From the NCBI GenBank assembly GCA_027858955.1, contig JAQIBR010000226.1, positions 1 to 41,318 on the forward strand: a DNA stretch of 41,318 nt. The letters run 5' to 3'. Below the pieces are notes generated by a model, which was not told the DNA's origin, did not search any database, and was given only the letters and a program-made list of their open reading frames with translations. How positions within the stretch are numbered: position 1 is the stretch's first letter; the number at the start of each line of letters is the position of its first letter. A program made the position numbers and the translations under genes. Source of the DNA: Bacteroidales bacterium. GTDB lineage: Bacteria > Bacteroidota > Bacteroidia > Bacteroidales > UBA12170. This document shows, piece by piece, positions 2,315-9,824 of the stretch.

Positions 2315-3658
2315 TTAAAAAAAACTGTTTATAATTTCTGTGGATTCACCTACAATTTTATCCAACAATTCAGTAGTTTTCGCTTCTGCTAAAAAACGCA
2401 AATAAGGCTCTGTATTAGAAGGCCTTATGTTTAACCACCAATCAGGAAATTCGATGCGATATCCGTCAAAATCGTAAAAAGCATCAGGTTCACCAGATTT
2501 TCTAAAATGCGCAATCACGGCATCCATCGCTTCTTGTTTTTTCTCAATTTTAAAATTGATTTCGCCGGAATTTTTATAAACTTCTATTTCTGCAATGGCT
2601 TTAGATAAGCTGATGCCTTGTTTTTTCAGGTCGCTTACAATATTCAGAACATAACTGGCAGCCAATAAGCCGGAATCGGAATAGAAAAACTCTTTAAAAT
2701 AATAATGGCCGGCCAATTCACCGCCAAACAAACCGTCTATTTCCCGAAGTTTTAATGCGGCATAAGCACGCCCAACACGCCACATATGCATTTCGCCATT
2801 GAATTTGGCAACATATTCGCCAACTGCCTTCGATGTGCGAATATCTTGCAGTACACGAATACCTGCTTTTTTCTCTTTCAGGAAATGATTGGCTAATAGT
2901 GCAATAATCAAATCGGGGGATATAAATCTTGAGTTTTCATCGACAAACATCACACGATCTGCATCGCCATCAAAGATAACGCCAATATCCGCCTTTATTT
3001 CCTTAACCAATTTTTGTGCGTCTACTATATTTTCAGGTTCTAAAGGATTTGCCTCGTGATTAGGAAAAGTGCCATCAAGATCATCAAAAATATAATGCAC
3101 ATTATCGCCTAAAATATCACGAATAAATAATCCTGCCATTCCGTTAGATACATCAACAGCAATATTTAAATTCGAAACATCTTTTATCTTATCTTTTTGA
3201 AAAGCAAGATATTCGGCTCTAAAATCGTTTTCTATAATTTTGCCTTTTACAGCTGCAGGTTCCACTTTTTCATTTAAAACCATTTTCTCCAAATCGCTCA
3301 GTCCGCTATCGTAACCAACAGGTAAGGCGTTGCTTGCCGAAAATTTTAAACCGTTATATTGCTTGGGATTATGCGAGGCAGTAATCATCACGGAAGCATC
3401 AAATCCATATTGAGCTGTTCCCCAATAAATCATTGGCGTAGTTGCCAAGCCTGTATCATAAACATCTGCGCCACTATCGGTAATTCCTTTGCAAAGGTAT
3501 TCGTATATTTCTGGAGAGGATGTGCGAACATCGCGCCCAACCAAAACTTTGTTCGATTTTAAAAGTCGAGTAAGGAAGAATCCAATTTTATATACATCGT
3601 CTTTGTTAAAATCGCGGTTGTAAACACCGCGAATGTCGTAAGCTTTAAAAGCGTTCAT
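2315..3658 (-). CDS. manB: Phosphomannomutase/phosphoglucomutase
   Basis: This 447-residue enzyme of the alpha-D-phosphohexomutase family interconverts hexose 1- and 6-phosphates, feeding GDP-mannose or UDP-glucose for surface polysaccharide. All four family signatures are visible: the phosphoserine loop TASHNPKQYNG, the metal loop DGDADR, the sugar loop GGELAGH, and the phosphate-binding loop RPSNTEPYLR near the C-terminus. GELAGH fits the PMM/PGM branch better than the phosphoglucosamine mutases. Length is normal. ATG at 3658 gives the expected N-terminus (FKAYDIRG). It lies 12 bases after the small unknown gene and is probably co-transcribed with it. Mannose versus glucose specificity is not resolvable. 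Confidence 0.9.
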   Translation of the reverse strand: MNAFKAYDIRGVYNRDFNKDDVYKIGFFLTRLLKSNKVLVGRDVRTSSPEIYEYLCKGITDSGADVYDTGLATTPMIYWGTAQYGFDASVMITASHNPKQYNGLKFSASNALPVGYDSGLSDLEKMVLNEKVEPAAVKGKIIENDFRAEYLAFQKDKIKDVSNLNIAVDVSNGMAGLFIRDILGDNVHYIFDDLDGTFPNHEANPLEPENIVDAQKLVKEIKADIGVIFDGDADRVMFVDENSRFISPDLIIALLANHFLKEKKAGIRVLQDIRTSKAVGEYVAKFNGEMHMWRVGRAYAALKLREIDGLFGGELAGHYYFKEFFYSDSGLLAASYVLNIVSDLKKQGISLSKAIAEIEVYKNSGEINFKIEKKQEAMDAVIAHFRKSGEPDAFYDFDGYRIEFPDWWLNIRPSNTEPYLRFLAEAKTTELLDKIVGESTEIINSFF

Positions 3659-3670
3659 ATATTTTTTATG

Positions 3671-3979
3671 TTAAAATTTTGTTCCTATTTGAGATAAAAT
3701 TTCACGAATGATAGTTTGTTCATAGACGCCAAAATTTTCGATTTGAACACTCATTATCGTACGAAATGCAGCTGCTTCGGCACTATTCAGACTAATTTTA
3801 TTTTTCTTTTTCAAATCCTGAAAGCGATTAATCATTTTCTTAAGTACTCTACCTAAAAGGTAACGAGCCATAATTTCTTTGTCAGGATCATCACTATAAA
3901 GCTTTTCAATGCTTAACATACACTGCGCCAATGCTGAGAACTGGCTAGCTGTTAGATCGAGTTTGATTTTATCATTCAT
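3671..3979 (-). CDS. Hypothetical protein, 102 residues
   Basis: I do not recognise this family. The protein is soluble, mostly helical in appearance and charged (IKLDLTASQFSALAQCML, RVLKKMINRFQDLKKKNK), with no signal peptide, membrane segment or metal motif. It starts with ATG at 3979, about 22 bases downstream of a TATCTTTG promoter-like octamer on the same strand, and ends 12 bases before the phosphomannomutase gene. The two therefore look like one transcription unit with this gene first. Normal codon use and the shared operon suggest a real gene. Confidence 0.7.
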   Translation of the reverse strand: MNDKIKLDLTASQFSALAQCMLSIEKLYSDDPDKEIMARYLLGRVLKKMINRFQDLKKKNKISLNSAEAAAFRTIMSVQIENFGVYEQTIIREILSQIGTKF

Positions 3980-4000
3980 CTTTTGAGCTTAAATGCATGG

Positions 4001-4008
4001 CAAAGATA
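4001..4008 (-). promoter_or_regulatory. Putative -7 box for the hypothetical-manB operon
   Basis: The minus strand reads TATCTTTG, matching the Bacteroidota -7 consensus TAnnTTTG, about 22 bases upstream of the ATG at 3979. No convincing -33 TTTG was found at the usual 17-23 base distance, so support is partial. Confidence 0.45.
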
Positions 4009-4040
4009 TTATTTTGCGTAAAACCTTAACATAATTTTTG

Positions 4041-4130
4041 TCACAGTACGAAGTATTAAACGAAAAAGGAAAAGGTCTGCCTTTAGAAGAAAGGACACGC
4101 ATTTCAGATATTGCATCTGGCATCATTGAA
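4041..4130 (+). other. Short orphan coding-like fragment
   Basis: Thirty open codons read SQYEVLNEKGKGLPLEER, then TRISDIASGIIE, running into GC-richer DNA joined to the intron maturase tail. The composition is protein-like but I cannot assign it. It may be the broken end of a gene interrupted by the intron or by later insertions. Confidence 0.25.
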
Positions 4131-4363
4131 ACCGAGCTTGCGAGCTCACGACCGAAGGGAGTAACAAACCCGAGCGAAAACGTAAGAATCTAATCCGTTT
4201 AGGTGTTAAAGAAGGCACGGCTTATGCTTGGAGTAGAACCAGAATGGGTGGATGGCGTGTAGCTCAAAGCCCGATTCTTGGCACTACGATCACTATCAAA
4301 CGGTTGGAATTGCGGGGTTATATTAGTTTAATGGAATACTACAAACAAGTAAGGTTTCATTAA
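4130..4363 (+). pseudogene. ltrA: 3' fragment of a group II intron reverse transcriptase/maturase
   Basis: The frame ending with TAA at 4361-4363 reads RKNLIRLGVKEGTAYAWSR, then TRMGGWRVAQSPI, TITIKRLELRGYISLMEYY. This is the C-terminal end of Bacteroidota group II intron-encoded proteins (family pattern NLIRLGxxEGxAYxWSRTRxGGWRxAxSPI). The reverse transcriptase domain and most of domain X are gone: the frame meets a TGA at 4127. The intron's own 3' RNA domains follow immediately, so this is the last few hundred bases of an otherwise deleted intron. Confidence 0.75.
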
Positions 4364-4365
4364 CG

Positions 4366-4474
4366 AACCGCCGTATACGAGAACCGTACTGCCTGTCCCG
4401 ATTATTCCATCGGGATACGGTGGTGTGAGAGGCGCACTCCGTCAGTTTTTACTGGCGGAGCCGTCTACTCGATT
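4366..4474 (+). ncRNA. Group II intron domains V-VI remnant, domain V interrupted
   Basis: Starting two bases after the maturase stop, ACCGCCGTATACGAGAACC and TACGGTGGT form the two arms of domain V. The lower stem is ACCGCCGTA/TACGGTGGT, the inner stem TACG/CGTA, and CGC is the catalytic triad candidate. The two-base bulge between CGTA and TACGGTGGT is replaced by about 26 bases (4390-4415). GTGAGAGG and the hairpin CTCCGTCAG/CTGGCGGAG then lead to CTACTCGATT, the usual 3' end of such introns. No 5' intron half is present. Confidence 0.6.
4396..4415. repeat. Small palindrome inserted in intron domain V
   Basis: TCCCGAT, a six-base loop TATTCC, then ATCGGGA form a perfect 7-bp stem. It occupies the place where an intact domain V has only a two-base bulge, so it looks like a short mobile hairpin element. 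Confidence 0.6.
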
Positions 4475-4486
4475 ACCAACTGGCCT
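4473..4486 (+). repeat. Candidate left terminal inverted repeat
   Basis: TTACCAACTGGCCT matches the reverse complement of 8156-8169 at 12 of 14 bases. It abuts the inferred 3' end of the group II intron remnant. Confidence 0.4.
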
Positions 4487-4544
4487 TTATGCATTTTAGT
4501 TTTTATCCACCTGAAATTTACTTCGTAAACAAGTTGTTGGTTAG

Positions 4545-5381
4545 CTATTTCTTTTTCCCACTTTTCAATTCTTTATTCTTTTTCTTTTTAGGAAGATAAT
4601 TACCAGTTGACACAACCTTTTTCCCAGTTTTGCTTTCTAGCTCAAGTCTTGCATTGCCTGCTACTGCTCCACCTTGTCTCGATGCTTTTTTATTTTCATT
4701 AAAACCTTTTGGGTTTTTATTCTTTACAATTTCTGTTGTTGAAGCTTCGCCTAACATCGAAAAAATCAATTCAAGGTCAGTCATATGATCACGCAAATTT
4801 TGACTTTTAAGCTGTTTCATTTTTTTATATTCTGAAGGAGTTAGTCCAAAAGTTGCTTTTGATATTTCTGCTGTAAGAATGGCATATTCTATTTGCTGTT
4901 TTATTCCTCTGTTTTTCCATTCTTCGGTTAACTCTTCTCGAATAGCAATACTTCGCATACGCTTTTCAATCCAGTCATCAGGATAACCTTTAGCTTTGTA
5001 TAATTCTCTAGTCCGCTGTGTGGCTAATTCAGGATTCTCAATCTCATCTAATCTGTCAGAACCAACTTGGGCTAACCATTGTTTAAATGGCTCAGCTTTT
5101 GGTGATGGTATTGATTGAATAATGCGTAAAAGTCCTTTAGCATTTGCACAATTCAGCTTTTGCTTTCCTCCAGCAGTTTCAACTGAAAGGGGGGTGACAA
5201 TTTGTCCCCACCCTTCTGAAAGTTGTATGTCTCGTTTGCGGATTTTTTTTATATAATCAGTCGGATTGGATGAATCTGTCAATATACGAACAACATCTAC
5301 TACAACAAAATACCATTTTTCATCTATTTCGTTCCAAACAGTTCTTATCTGCTCGCTTTCAAAGAGTTTAATATTGCTCAT
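4545..5381 (-). CDS. BRO-N domain protein (phage antirepressor/DinD-like)
   Basis: This 278-residue protein starts with a Bro-N domain (about residues 3-115): IKLFESEQIRTVWNEID, KWYFVVVDVVRILTDS, LNCANAKGLLRIIQS, FKQWLAQVG. Bro-N is a DNA-binding domain of phage antirepressors and baculovirus BRO proteins. The following segment (ELYKAKGYPDDWIEKRMRS, IREELTEEWKNRG) is the conserved C-terminal part of Bacteroidota BRO/DinD-like proteins. The tail is strongly basic (NYLPKKKKNKELKSGKKK), suggesting nucleic-acid binding. It begins 26 bases after the transposase-fusion gene on the same strand and probably shares its transcript. A regulatory or DNA-damage role is inferred from family only. Confidence 0.82.
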   Translation of the reverse strand: MSNIKLFESEQIRTVWNEIDEKWYFVVVDVVRILTDSSNPTDYIKKIRKRDIQLSEGWGQIVTPLSVETAGGKQKLNCANAKGLLRIIQSIPSPKAEPFKQWLAQVGSDRLDEIENPELATQRTRELYKAKGYPDDWIEKRMRSIAIREELTEEWKNRGIKQQIEYAILTAEISKATFGLTPSEYKKMKQLKSQNLRDHMTDLELIFSMLGEASTTEIVKNKNPKGFNENKKASRQGGAVAGNARLELESKTGKKVVSTGNYLPKKKKNKELKSGKKK

Positions 5382-5407
5382 GAATTAATAATTAATTTTC
5401 AATTTAG

Positions 5408-8080
5408 TTAAATGTTTTTCTTCCCTGATATTAAGAATTTTAGAAACGATTTATTCTGAAATTTGCATGATTGCATAATTCCTAAAAATAGTAAATAATG
5501 TGAAATTCCTGTGCTGAAATACATAGATATTTTTCTTTGTATTGCTATATGTCTAATTCCTCTTTCTGCCATATTATTGTTCCATGGAATGTTGTCAAAA
5601 TTAAGAAAAGTAAACAAGTTTGACCAGTGTTTTTTTAACCGTATCTGGTATTTTAAAGTTATTTCGGAATTATAGCTTTTATTTAATATTACCAGTTCAT
5701 AAAATTCATCAATATTTTTCCTGAATTTATTAAAATGACATTTCTTTAATCCATATTTCTCAATTGTTGCAAATATTGGAATAATTAAATCCTTCAATTT
5801 CAACATAAATTTTTCATATTCATCATCATAAGGATTTTTCCATAAATCATCATTCAAATCTCTTAATAAATGAACCCAACATTTCTGTTGCATACAATTC
5901 AAAGAGTCATAACCTAGGTAAAAATCAGAAACAAGTATCCCTTTAAAGTCCGTCAAAAGTTCAACAACCATACTTATTTCACGAGTTTCTGTTTCACGAA
6001 AAACTACATATTTCCCATCTGTAAATATCCAAATATAGTGATTAGTACCTTTAAAACTAATTTGAGTTTCATCAACATGGATAAATGGACTTTTGAGTAG
6101 CTGCTTTAGATTTAGATTTTCCGTAATATTATATGTGTAAGAAAATATTTTGATAATATTGTAAATACTTGCATTGCTAATTTTTTCATTGAACAACTCT
6201 ATTAAATTCAATCTTATTACATCATAAGGCAATCTGAGAAAAAGTCTCTGGTAAACCACCCATGCTTTAAAATTACGCCCAAAATGTAGGTTTTTTATTT
6301 TCTCGATTTGAGGGGGAGTAAACTTTTTTTTACAAAGGGAACAATAACTTTTGTGTCCTTCGTATTTGATAATTGATTTCCGCATTCCGGATTTTGTGAA
6401 AACTAAATCAGTTATTGTTTGATTTGACATGACAGGGCTTTCGGTCAACTTACATTTATGAATTGGGCAAACACTTTTCATCGGCACAATAATTTTTTTC
6501 TTTGGCTTTGGAAAAATCCGAGATGTTCCTACATGACCAATTTTCCTTCCAACTTTATTTTTCTCTAAAACTTCATCTTGCCTGAAACCTTGAAAACATA
6601 TTTTGCTTTTATCATAAGTTTCATGTGCAAATTTCAAAACCATATCAAGTTGTTGATGAATTTGAGAACCTGCAAGCGAAGCATTTTTTTTAGGGCTATT
6701 AACAAAATCAATATCTGATAAAATATCAGCAGATTCCTGTATTCGTAATAGCTTGTCAGTCAATAATTTTAATGCCTGACAGTCTTCTAAATTATAAGTG
6801 ATTAATAATTGCTTAAATTTTTCATCATGTGTAACTTCCCATAAATGTCTCCAAACCAAACTTTGTATACCACTTGCTATATTTGATGACCATGTAGCAC
6901 CGATATAATTTCCTAATACTTTTAATCTATTGGAATAAACAGGAAAATATATTTTACCAAAAATGGAATTACTTATGTTTATTAAATTTGATTGTATAGC
7001 CGCTGTGTTTGTTTTATATCTTTTCCCAAGCATTTCAATTGCCTTTGCATCATAATTGCCATAATGAAATATAGGAGAATTTGGATATTCGCTAATCTTT
7101 AAAAGGAACTGTTGCCAAATGTGAACATCGTCACTTGCATTATTTGCCCAAAAAGAATAGGTTGCAATTTTCTGATTATCTATCACATATAATCCAATCA
7201 AATAATAAGTATCCTTATCTGGATTACCTTCTACATCCAAAAAAATCTCTATTGGTTGTCTTGATAATTCCGGTAATAATTGCACTAGAGTTTTATCAGT
7301 TCTAATCGCTAGTGCCTGTATTTCAATATTGTGAGAGACTATTGGCTTGGATTTTTGTTTTCGCCTTCTTCTGGGTCTGTACAAGTATGAAAGTTGCTGA
7401 ACAGTAAAAATTCCTTTCTTTTTATATTTCTCAATTATTTTGTCTGTCGCTCTATCCAATAAACTTAAATTATCATCTGCTTTGGCCTTGTCCATGCAAT
7501 AAGTTCTGTATTCACAAACGACACAATGATTATTCAGAATTAAGGAAGGTTCGACTGAATCAATTGCAATTGCATTCAAAGTACCAATTAATTTTTTAAT
7601 GCTCGGAGTTGGAACTGATAATTTAAGTTTTCTTTTATTTAAATATTTTCCATAAATTACTTTAACATATTCTATCTTAATATTACATTCTTTTTGAATA
7701 TAATAAGATTGCAGCAGAATAAATTGTCTGTCATATTTTGTAACCTTTTCTAATGGAATAATAAAAATAGGAATAATGTTGCTAGTACCAGTAAATTCAA
7801 TTCCATCAAATATCAATTTTAAATTTGACACCTTAAATGTGAGGTCTAATGAAACACCTTCCTTTTGAACTATGTTGTCAAACGTGGAGTCTGTGAAAAT
7901 TTGAATGCCATTTTCAGAAAGATTTTGTTCAAAATGACATTTTTGTTTTTGTTTAAGCTGATTGTAGAGTGTTTGATATTCGGAAATAATTCCCTTTTGA
8001 CGTTTCGATTTTAGAAATGCCTTGTGTTGACAGAAAACAAAACCATAAAGTATTTCATTATTTATATGCATAATGTCCAT
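5408..8080 (-). CDS. TM0106 RecB/Cas4-like + DEDDy RNase H-like + IS66-type DDE transposase fusion
   Basis: The 890-residue protein shows three modules in one open frame. Residues 1-200 are TM0106/Cas4-like: C17 (FVFCQHKAFLK) with C186, C189 and C195 (CVVCEYRTYC) match the four-cysteine FeS staple. The expected D...ExK nuclease residues are not visible around 90-115. Residues 275-445 are an RNase H-like 3'-5' exonuclease (YprB/RNase_H_2 type) with D282 and E284 (FLDVEG), D344 (FHYGNYD) and Y429/D433 (YNLEDC), a complete DEDDy set. Residues 538-583 hold a zinc-knuckle-like C538, C543, C580, C583. Residues 600-890 are an IS66-type DDE domain with D670 (IHVDETQ), D719 (LVSDFYLGYD), CWVHLLRDL and E839 (NNNMAERGIR). 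An IS66 transposase alone is about 500 residues. No separate IS66 tnpA or tnpB lies beside it. The domain calls are strong; the function of the combination is unknown to me. Confidence 0.85.
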   Translation of the reverse strand: MDIMHINNEILYGFVFCQHKAFLKSKRQKGIISEYQTLYNQLKQKQKCHFEQNLSENGIQIFTDSTFDNIVQKEGVSLDLTFKVSNLKLIFDGIEFTGTSNIIPIFIIPLEKVTKYDRQFILLQSYYIQKECNIKIEYVKVIYGKYLNKRKLKLSVPTPSIKKLIGTLNAIAIDSVEPSLILNNHCVVCEYRTYCMDKAKADDNLSLLDRATDKIIEKYKKKGIFTVQQLSYLYRPRRRRKQKSKPIVSHNIEIQALAIRTDKTLVQLLPELSRQPIEIFLDVEGNPDKDTYYLIGLYVIDNQKIATYSFWANNASDDVHIWQQFLLKISEYPNSPIFHYGNYDAKAIEMLGKRYKTNTAAIQSNLINISNSIFGKIYFPVYSNRLKVLGNYIGATWSSNIASGIQSLVWRHLWEVTHDEKFKQLLITYNLEDCQALKLLTDKLLRIQESADILSDIDFVNSPKKNASLAGSQIHQQLDMVLKFAHETYDKSKICFQGFRQDEVLEKNKVGRKIGHVGTSRIFPKPKKKIIVPMKSVCPIHKCKLTESPVMSNQTITDLVFTKSGMRKSIIKYEGHKSYCSLCKKKFTPPQIEKIKNLHFGRNFKAWVVYQRLFLRLPYDVIRLNLIELFNEKISNASIYNIIKIFSYTYNITENLNLKQLLKSPFIHVDETQISFKGTNHYIWIFTDGKYVVFRETETREISMVVELLTDFKGILVSDFYLGYDSLNCMQQKCWVHLLRDLNDDLWKNPYDDEYEKFMLKLKDLIIPIFATIEKYGLKKCHFNKFRKNIDEFYELVILNKSYNSEITLKYQIRLKKHWSNLFTFLNFDNIPWNNNMAERGIRHIAIQRKISMYFSTGISHYLLFLGIMQSCKFQNKSFLKFLISGKKNI

Positions 8081-8155
8081 TAAAAATAGTCACTATTTTT
8101 TCTCCTCTTTTAGCTTATCACATTACGAATAAGTCTAATTCAGATGCAGTGTCTT

Positions 8156-8169
8156 AGGCTTGTTGGTAA
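8156..8169 (-). repeat. Candidate right terminal inverted repeat
   Basis: AGGCTTGTTGGTAA is the imperfect inverted partner of 4473-4486. It lies about 75 bases upstream of the fusion gene's start codon. Confidence 0.4.
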
Positions 8170-8837
8170 CATCCTAATAAAAACAATTGCTTTTATTTCT
8201 ACTATAGGCATATTTCTATTATTTTAATTTAATACCCTGTATATCAATAATAAAAGCAAATATAAACGTTTACAAATGTATATTTATCCTATAATTTCTA
8301 TTTGCATGAGTTAAAAAATATGTGTTATATATATTCAAAGATAAATAAATATTTATAATAAACTAAATGTTAATAAGTTGGTGAATATTAAGAAACTGTC
8401 TAAATTTAATTTGGACTAACAATTCATGTGTTTTTTATTTGATTTGTTTGGTGAAATTTAGTGATTTGGAGTTTTTGTGGCCTAATTTTTCTTGCCACCA
8501 AAGCACTAAAACACTAAATCGCACTAAAATTCTTATCGCCCAAAAATCATAACAATAAATTTAGATAATTTCTAATAAACCAAGGAGAATATTTAGGTTT
8601 TCAATCCAGTGAATTATAAGCCGGCAGCTTTCTTTATCTCACTTTCTTTCCGGACTATTGAGTTTTAAAAATTTATAATCATTCTAAACTTAGGCTGTAA
8701 CTTTCAGAAAATCAGTAATTAAGGCTGTTTTTTGTTAAAGAAAGGAATTTTAAAATGCATTTAATAGATTTAAAATCAATAAGTTAGATGCCTCAAAATA
8801 GCTTGTATAAGATGTGCTCAAATCTTAAATTTGTTTA
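8170..8837. other. Long AT-rich intergenic region upstream of rnf
   Basis: No gene is visible. The region holds an 11-bp inverted repeat (TTGCTTTTATT at 8187, AATAAAAGCAA at 8249), the palindrome at 8447-8528, and otherwise AT-rich sequence leading to the rnf promoter. It is long for a promoter region and could contain decayed sequence. Confidence 0.5.
8447..8528. repeat. Intergenic imperfect palindrome (CACTAA type)
   Basis: The left arm TTTGGTGAAATTTAGTG, then GTTTTTGTGGC, pairs with the right arm GCCACCAAAGCACTAAAAC, CACTAAATCGCACTAAA. This is the same family as 1343-1425, including the shared GATTT(A)NTGTTTGGTGAA lead-in. Confidence 0.65.
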
Positions 8838-8845
8838 TACTTTTG
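8838..8845 (+). promoter_or_regulatory. Putative -7 box of the rnf operon
   Basis: TACTTTTG fits TAnnTTTG and lies 50 bases upstream of the rnfB start. A clear -33 element is not visible at the canonical distance (TGTG at 8812-8815 is the nearest). The identical octamer precedes the gene at 40797. Confidence 0.45.
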
Positions 8846-8894
8846 CCGCATCAATAAAGGGTTTAGATTATAAACCACACTAAAACTTTGAAAT

Positions 8895-9824
8895 GTGAAC
8901 GAAGTATTGATTTATGCAGTTGGTTCTTTAGGTGCGATTGGTATTGTTGCCGCAGTGATTTTATTTTTTGTTGCGCAAAAATTTAAAGTCTATGAAGATC
9001 CTAGAATTGATGAAGTAGAAGAAGCTCTACCCAGTGCAAACTGTGGTGGTTGTGGATATGCTGGCTGTCGTGCCTTTGCTGAAGGGATGGTAAAAGCTGG
9101 AAATATGGAAGGCTTTAACTGTCCGGTTGGCGGTGCAGATGTTATGCAACAAGTGGCTTCAATATTAGGTTTGGTAGCTGATGTTACTGAGCCAATGATT
9201 GCAGTTATTCGTTGCAATGGTTCCTTGCTTAATTCACCTAAAAAGGTGGAATACGATGGAATTGCAACCTGTGCATCTGCTAGCGTTTTATATGCCGGTG
9301 ATGGCGGTTGTTCTTTTGGCTGCTTAGGATTAGCTGATTGTGTGGTTTCCTGCGATTTTGATGCCATCCATATGAATCCTGAAACGGGATTACCAGAAGT
9401 AAATAACAATTGTACTGCTTGTGGAGCTTGTGTTAAAGCTTGTCCGCGCGACATAATAGAACTTCGGAATGTTGGTAAAAAAGAGAGAAGAATTTTTGTT
9501 TCTTGCATTAACGAAGAAAAAGGTGCTCCTGCCAAAAAGAATTGTACTGTTGCTTGTATTGGCTGTTCAAAATGTTTTAATGTTTGTCCTTTCGAAGCTA
9601 TCGAAATGAAGAACAATCGCGCTTATATCGATTACGATAAGTGTAAGCTTTGTCGTAAGTGCGTGCCTGTTTGTCCTACCGATGCTATTCACGAAATTAA
9701 TTTCCCATTAAAGAAACTAATTGTCAAAGAAGAAAAAGCTGTTGAGACAAGCGCCGAAACTGTAAGCGCAAAAACACCTGCGACTGAAAAACAAGACGAA
9801 GTAAATAAAACTGAAGAGTCATAA
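8895..9824 (+). CDS. rnfB: Rnf complex subunit B (polyferredoxin)
   Basis: RnfB takes electrons from reduced ferredoxin and passes them into the membrane Rnf complex (ferredoxin:NAD+ oxidoreductase pumping Na+ or H+). The N-terminal membrane anchor is residues 4-26. The FeS domain follows with CGGCGYAGC (about 50-58) and a Cys in FNCPVGG. Downstream are several [4Fe-4S] ferredoxin motifs: CTACGACVKACPRD, CIGCSKCFNVCPFE and CKLCRKCVPVCPTD. The C-terminal tail is Lys/Glu/Ala-rich and low in complexity. The start is GTG at 8895; no in-frame ATG would retain the anchor. First gene of rnfBCDGEA; rnfC follows after 31 bases. Confidence 0.93.
   Translation: MNEVLIYAVGSLGAIGIVAAVILFFVAQKFKVYEDPRIDEVEEALPSANCGGCGYAGCRAFAEGMVKAGNMEGFNCPVGGADVMQQVASILGLVADVTEPMIAVIRCNGSLLNSPKKVEYDGIATCASASVLYAGDGGCSFGCLGLADCVVSCDFDAIHMNPETGLPEVNNNCTACGACVKACPRDIIELRNVGKKERRIFVSCINEEKGAPAKKNCTVACIGCSKCFNVCPFEAIEMKNNRAYIDYDKCKLCRKCVPVCPTDAIHEINFPLKKLIVKEEKAVETSAETVSAKTPATEKQDEVNKTEES

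Follow-up and report, generated by a model that had tools for sequence, protein, structure and literature searches.

A candidate nuclease-coupled transposase family in which a Cas4-like domain and a DEDDy exonuclease are fused to an IS66-type DDE transposase

DDE transposases frequently depend on partners for processing the strand that they leave uncut. A gene in a 41,318-nucleotide stretch of a Bacteroidales contig (JAQIBR010000226.1; this whole stretch is called the window below) raises the question whether such a partner can be built into the transposase chain itself. The initial annotation had read one uninterrupted frame of 890 codons at positions 5408-8080, joining a Cas4/TM0106-like module, a DEDDy exonuclease and an IS66-type transposase, and had proposed a 3'-end-processing exonuclease carried next to its transposase. 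The frame was confirmed, on the minus strand (Table 1). Searches with Pfam and NCBIfam profiles matched TIGR03491 (TM0106) to residues 123-442 (E 9e-50; 170 bits, over the cut-off of 97.45), RNase_H_2 to residues 279-444 (E 7e-26) and DDE_Tnp_IS66 (PF03050) to residues 600-857 (E 1e-31; 110.7 bits, cut-off 23.1). The same searches gave a weak Cas4 match over residues 14-196, and the family profile matched Cas4 8d3l among PDB sequences (E 2e-5). When only the exonuclease domain was used, the PDB profile match (4r6i, E 0.06) was judged to be due to chance.

Table 1 Features of the fused gene and its surroundings in the window
Feature	Position	Strand	Basis or remark
Fused TM0106-like / DEDDy exonuclease / IS66-type DDE transposase gene, 890 aa	5408..8080	minus	ATG start
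Cas4/DUF83-like N-terminal domain, residues 1-200, PD-(D/E)XK site degenerate	7481..8080	minus	8d3l match, motif residues lost, fold matches
Codon of Cys17, first ligand of predicted FeS staple	8030..8032	minus	Invariant
Codons 186-195, three other FeS cysteines (C186, C189, C195)	7496..7525	minus	Invariant
DEDDy exonuclease domain, residues 277-450 (D282, E284, D/E344, Y429, D433)	6731..7252	minus	Profile, conservation, model, fold match
Disordered linker (predicted), residues 489-518	6527..6616	minus	pLDDT below 50
Zinc ribbon (C538, C543, C580, C583)	6332..6469	minus	Window sequence and family conservation
Helical region before DDE core, residues 590-663	6092..6313	minus	Model and divergence comparison
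DDE catalytic domain, residues 664-890 (D670, D719, E839)	5411..6091	minus	Profile, conservation, ISCth4 6xgx fold match
Bro-N gene, PADLOC candidate PDC-S13, 26 bp downstream, co-directional	4545..5381	minus	PADLOC, E 1e-119
4.65-kb insertion with the fused gene; empty syntenic site in five congeners	4011..8658		Congener comparison

An AlphaFold2 model of the full chain had a mean pLDDT of 88.7 and a pTM of 0.61; because of this pTM value and the disordered linker between the two halves, their relative placement is not reliable, and the idea of one DNA channel serving both the exonuclease and the DDE site found no support. Foldseek matched the model to the ISCth4 transposase (6xgx, an IS256-family enzyme), to Cas4 (8d3l, 7mi5, 4r5q and 4ic1) and to B-family polymerases. 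Modelled alone, the exonuclease domain reached a pLDDT of 96.6 and a pTM of 0.92 and matched the folds of B-family polymerase exonucleases and DnaQ. The predicted fold is also resembled by giant-virus proteins (BFVD A0A5J6VIM9, A0A3G4ZWN9 and A0A5K0U8I2) over 518-725 alignment columns.

Conservation was counted in 83 aligned rows, with a separate alignment of 59 rows for the FeS cysteines and Cas4 motifs. Every residue named in the initial annotation was found in the window protein. The four cysteines of the predicted FeS staple are invariant wherever present among the 83 rows, and also in the 59 aligned proteins. In the exonuclease domain, D282 and E284 are kept in 79 of 80 rows, Y429 in 81 of 82 and D433 in 82 of 82, giving the DEDDy pattern of D-x-E, D/E and Y-x3-D on an RNase H fold. 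The full DEDDy set that had been read here holds with one qualification: the third acid is D344 in the window protein and Glu in most members. With these residues near-invariant and the predicted fold matching DEDDy exonucleases, the suspicion that the RNase H-like residues might fail to superpose on a DEDD site falls away. The "zinc knuckle" was right as to the zinc-binding cysteines, of which C538, C580 and C583 are invariant in the 83 rows, but its type is a zinc ribbon. The DDE triad is intact and near-invariant across the family (D670 and D719 in 82/82 rows each, E839 in 79/79), and so are the IS66 residues around it.

The residues of the Cas4-like domain tell otherwise. Read against the Cas4 profile alignment, no more than 24 of 59 members have the motif-II Asp (D92), and hydrophobic residues occupy the motif-III Glu/Lys positions of the fused proteins (59 rows). 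An active Cas4-type nuclease was rejected on these residues. Since the PD-(D/E)XK residues are lost, the domain most likely serves as an FeS clamp without catalytic activity, which probably binds DNA. Judged by its residues, the predicted DEDDy site is the only plausible nuclease of the fused protein. The proposal of an exonuclease beside a transposase is thus borne out as a single polypeptide conserved across phyla, though not with the Cas4 part as an active nuclease.

It could be objected that two genes had been joined by a chance read-through or an assembly error. A profile built from three sequences was run against 84,980 species genomes; this confirmed 120 relatives, of which the best 80 were retained. 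All of these 80 show the same domain order, with about 66 distinct loci in one intact frame and about a dozen truncated, split or ended by a contig edge. Full-length homologues therefore carry the halves fused rather than as separate genes, in complete plasmids and in dozens of independent assemblies; nothing was found in favour of a chance join, and this explanation can be regarded as refuted. The fusion occurs in at least eleven phyla (Bacteroidota, Cyanobacteriota, Verrucomicrobiota, Kiritimatiellota, Acidobacteriota, Pseudomonadota, Myxococcota, Planctomycetota, Nitrospirota, Nitrospinota and Thermodesulfobacteriota), and also in KSB1, one Parcubacteria bin and one Methanoregula bin. Many loci lie on MAG contigs, so that single host assignments may be wrong. 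Plasmid searches matched both halves in plasmids of Calothrix PCC 7716 and Acaryochloris marina, where the proteins are named after one half only ("transposase IS66, putative" or "TM0106 family RecB-like putative nuclease"). As such annotations conceal the architecture, the family has probably escaped notice. The initial annotation knew of no characterised member; likewise, neither a description nor a characterised member of the TM0106-like/DEDDy/IS66 fusion family was found in the open-access literature searched.

We hold with moderate confidence that these proteins form a horizontally spread family of nuclease-coupled transposases, in which an IS66-type DDE enzyme is combined with a dead Cas4-fold FeS clamp and a DEDDy 3'-5' exonuclease. 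In its favour are the constant domain order, the near-invariant catalytic and metal-binding residues, the selection on each domain tested, the fold matches, the trees of the two halves, the patchy occurrence across phyla and the empty site in congeners. The DDE site would cut and join DNA, as family knowledge suggests, with the zinc ribbon and helical region recognising the DNA and the FeS clamp holding or positioning a strand. The DEDDy site might then trim a 3' strand, be it that of an end, of flanking donor DNA or of target DNA. By analogy with TnsA, which assists TnsB in Tn7, the nuclease partner could complete the processing beyond what a DDE enzyme does alone.

An alternative would be an ordinary IS66-type insertion sequence of low copy number, whose nuclease is a passenger of little importance for movement. 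The IS66-type DDE core and zinc ribbon, and the frequency of decayed or truncated copies, agree with this. However, the residues of the DEDDy site and the FeS staple hardly vary across phyla, and low dN/dS values extend over the whole protein, nuclease half included (0.08-0.43 per domain in five pairs; 0.18-0.22 overall). These two observations indicate that the nuclease half is not passive; purifying selection acts on every domain tested. No gene family, including tnpA/tnpB and TnsC/TnsD-like genes, was found to be conserved beside the fused gene across loci. Accessory tnpA/tnpB genes are absent in some IS66 elements. Given in addition the lack of detectable terminal repeats (see below), the passenger explanation is considered improbable.

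Trees of the two halves set the fused proteins apart. In the C-terminal-half tree all 60 fused proteins fall on one side of 15 ordinary IS66 proteins (support 99/98), and in the N-terminal-half tree the same number fall on one side of five standalone or helicase-linked TM0106 proteins (support 100). Both trees are compatible with one fusion event, though they contain few outgroups and some long branches. L044 and L096 were grouped differently in the two trees; the N-terminal half of L044 lies with Verrucomicrobiota and its C-terminal half elsewhere, either as a natural chimera or as a MAG artefact.

The distribution of the gene raises a second alternative. Copies are patchy and frequently located on plasmids. 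Apart from the genome of the window itself, the fusion was found in none of the 99 genomes searched as relatives; in three other families it occurs in 11 of 193, 2 of 349 and 1 of 298 genomes. A protein over the TM0106 cut-off was found in only three of 198 Bacteroidia genomes, and two of the three are fusions. Fragments aside, genomes carry one to three copies, and the copy sets checked (Microvirga and Nostoc flagelliforme) are divergent; no amplification within genomes was seen. A multi-copy insertion sequence in the genome of the window was rejected, as it holds a single full copy. A search of phage records yielded a single partial IS66 match, and a scan of viral contigs none. This low-copy, patchy, plasmid- and island-borne occurrence would also fit a domesticated transposase that serves in defence or plasmid conflict, its IS66-type half binding (perhaps cutting) specific DNA and its DEDDy half degrading it. 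Its gene would then be carried along by plasmids and islands rather than spread by its own transposition. As a whole this reading is less likely than the preferred one, yet it is a serious rival and the strongest of those considered.

The neighbourhoods might be read in the same way. In a plain tally of a sample of 135 flanking proteins, which makes no claim of an enrichment for defence, integrases, ParA, toxin-antitoxin, restriction-modification, AbiEii, DISARM-type DrmD, HEC-01 and PD-T4-6 families were found, and in the window the PDC-S13 candidate follows the fused gene. On the other hand, this Bro-N gene is not conserved at other loci, no partner gene is, and PADLOC-DB 2.0.0 contains no model of the fused protein, giving weak Cas4 matches only. 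The near-invariance of the DDE triad and the surrounding IS66 residues likewise argues against domestication, as DNA binding alone would not need them. At two related loci, and only there, a gene for a 179-aa protein lies directly upstream of the fusion (L018, 3948-4487; L080, 5017-5556).

Five congeners lack the 4.65-kb insertion: their sequence runs on directly from window position 4010 to about 8659. No clear target duplication was seen at the insertion. It contains the fused gene, the Bro-N gene and dispersed repeats; since it is compound, its edges may differ from those of the gene. Two dispersed MITE-like repeats lie upstream of the fused gene (8167-8369 and 8385-8575), the second with many more matches in its own genome, and a near-perfect palindrome, AAAAATAGTCACTATTTTT, occupies 8082-8101 immediately 5' of the start codon. 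The plus strand at about 4185-4500 resembles the truncated 3' end of a group II intron with a maturase C-terminus (...MEYYKQVRFH* in one frame); an Rfam search of window positions 3600-9000 gave no RNA family at E 0.1. Ungapped and gapped searches of about 60 loci, with cross-locus controls, gave no convincing terminal inverted repeats or target duplications. Own pairs scored only slightly over cross pairs, in a search that was modestly sensitive on ordinary IS66 genes and had controls unmatched in base composition.

Several candidate ends were rejected. At L065 and L086 the fused gene lies amid repeated palindromic sequences on both sides, which are REP-like since several copies occur nearby, and the flanking repeats of L048 look similar. 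L018, L080 and L069 have a common downstream flank and thus represent one ancestral locus; L055 and L056 lie on the same contig, and L041 and L042 have downstream genes in common. L030 and L083 both precede a DUF4365 gene with different junctions; after comparison of L083 with L030 and plasmids, a deletion was equally possible as an insertion into this gene.

In four pairs (L030/L083, L032/L040, L024/L080 and window/L021) nucleotide homology ends no more than ~15 bp from the ATG; in those with a 3' end present, the same distance applies to the stop codon. In L027/L038 homology goes on for ~220 bp on the upstream side and 36 bp on the downstream side, and in L087/L089 for ~340 bp upstream. A homology stop at the edges of the reading frame is thus common among relocated copies, though not universal, and is unlike an ordinary insertion sequence. 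Together with the missing terminal repeats and target duplications, these stops mean that transposition is inferred only, and the view of the gene as an autonomous element with defined ends was not upheld. That no element ends were found favours domestication, as does the site common to L023 and L083, plasmid-like and with ~90 % identical flanks, which holds clearly different fused genes.

Between close relatives (L049/L058/L092 and L024/L080), divergence is far quicker in residues ~440-710 than in other parts of the protein; the segment comprises the linker, the zinc ribbon and the helical region. For L024/L080, dS was 0.69 in this segment against 0.21-0.27 in the N-terminal half and 0.48 in the DDE domain. 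Some variation in divergence along the length is seen in pairs of ordinary IS66 proteins as well. The pattern suggests that the recognition module is exchanged between lineages, the dS contrast coming from one pair. Fast divergence of the recognition segment, with raised dS where visible, would suit domestication; it would also suit a more specific form of the preferred reading, namely a class of mobile genes in which a transposase with its own exonuclease and dead clamp moves as a unit of about the reading frame, without classical inverted repeats and with an exchanged recognition module. This version is put forward tentatively, as rather doubtful.

An exonuclease kept in the chain of a transposase across at least eleven phyla provides a defined protein for asking whether end trimming can be built in, in parallel with the trimming by Cas4 that precedes integration by Cas1. 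In Tn7-type elements the nuclease-fold TnsA is coupled to the DDE transposase TnsB, sometimes in one chain (TnsAB fusions), TnsA being a catalytically active PD-(D/E)XK endonuclease of the restriction type. The fused protein also couples a nuclease-fold module to a DDE transposase, but its PD-(D/E)XK fold appears dead, its predicted nuclease is a DEDDy exonuclease and its loci have no conserved TnsC/TnsD-like neighbours. With IS66 transposases it shares the zinc ribbon, the helical region and the D, D, E core, and it differs by its N-terminal nuclease module and its lack of conserved accessory genes and detectable terminal repeats; it also stays under the cut-off of the NCBIfam IS66 equivalog NF033517 (167.8 bits; cut-off 180). 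The integrase of casposons is of the Cas1 type. Casposons combine a Cas4-like nuclease domain with an integrase in one mobile element, the domain being fused to a helicase in one case (PMC4046053) and, unlike here, not to the integrase. Cas4 holds an FeS cluster with four cysteines, of which one lies near the N-terminus and the others are C-terminal, and the active-site residue D99 of Sso0001 is needed for cleavage (PMC3466216). The fused proteins have the same cysteine layout and the same predicted fold, whereas the residue matching D99 is unconserved and the motif-III Glu/Lys pair is gone. COG2251 proteins consist of DUF83 and PF13482, often with AAA domains, and are predicted to have 3'-5' exonuclease activity (PMC3985635). 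Their order of a four-Cys Cas4-like domain and a DEDD exonuclease is that of the fused protein; their known partners, however, are AAA or helicase domains instead of an IS66-type transposase, and the fused group, which is without PD-(D/E)XK residues, stands apart from the five members sampled. Standalone TM0106 proteins of ~490-504 aa (G105, G101, G109 and G103; L194-L197) occur beside the fusion in the same cyanobacterial genomes.
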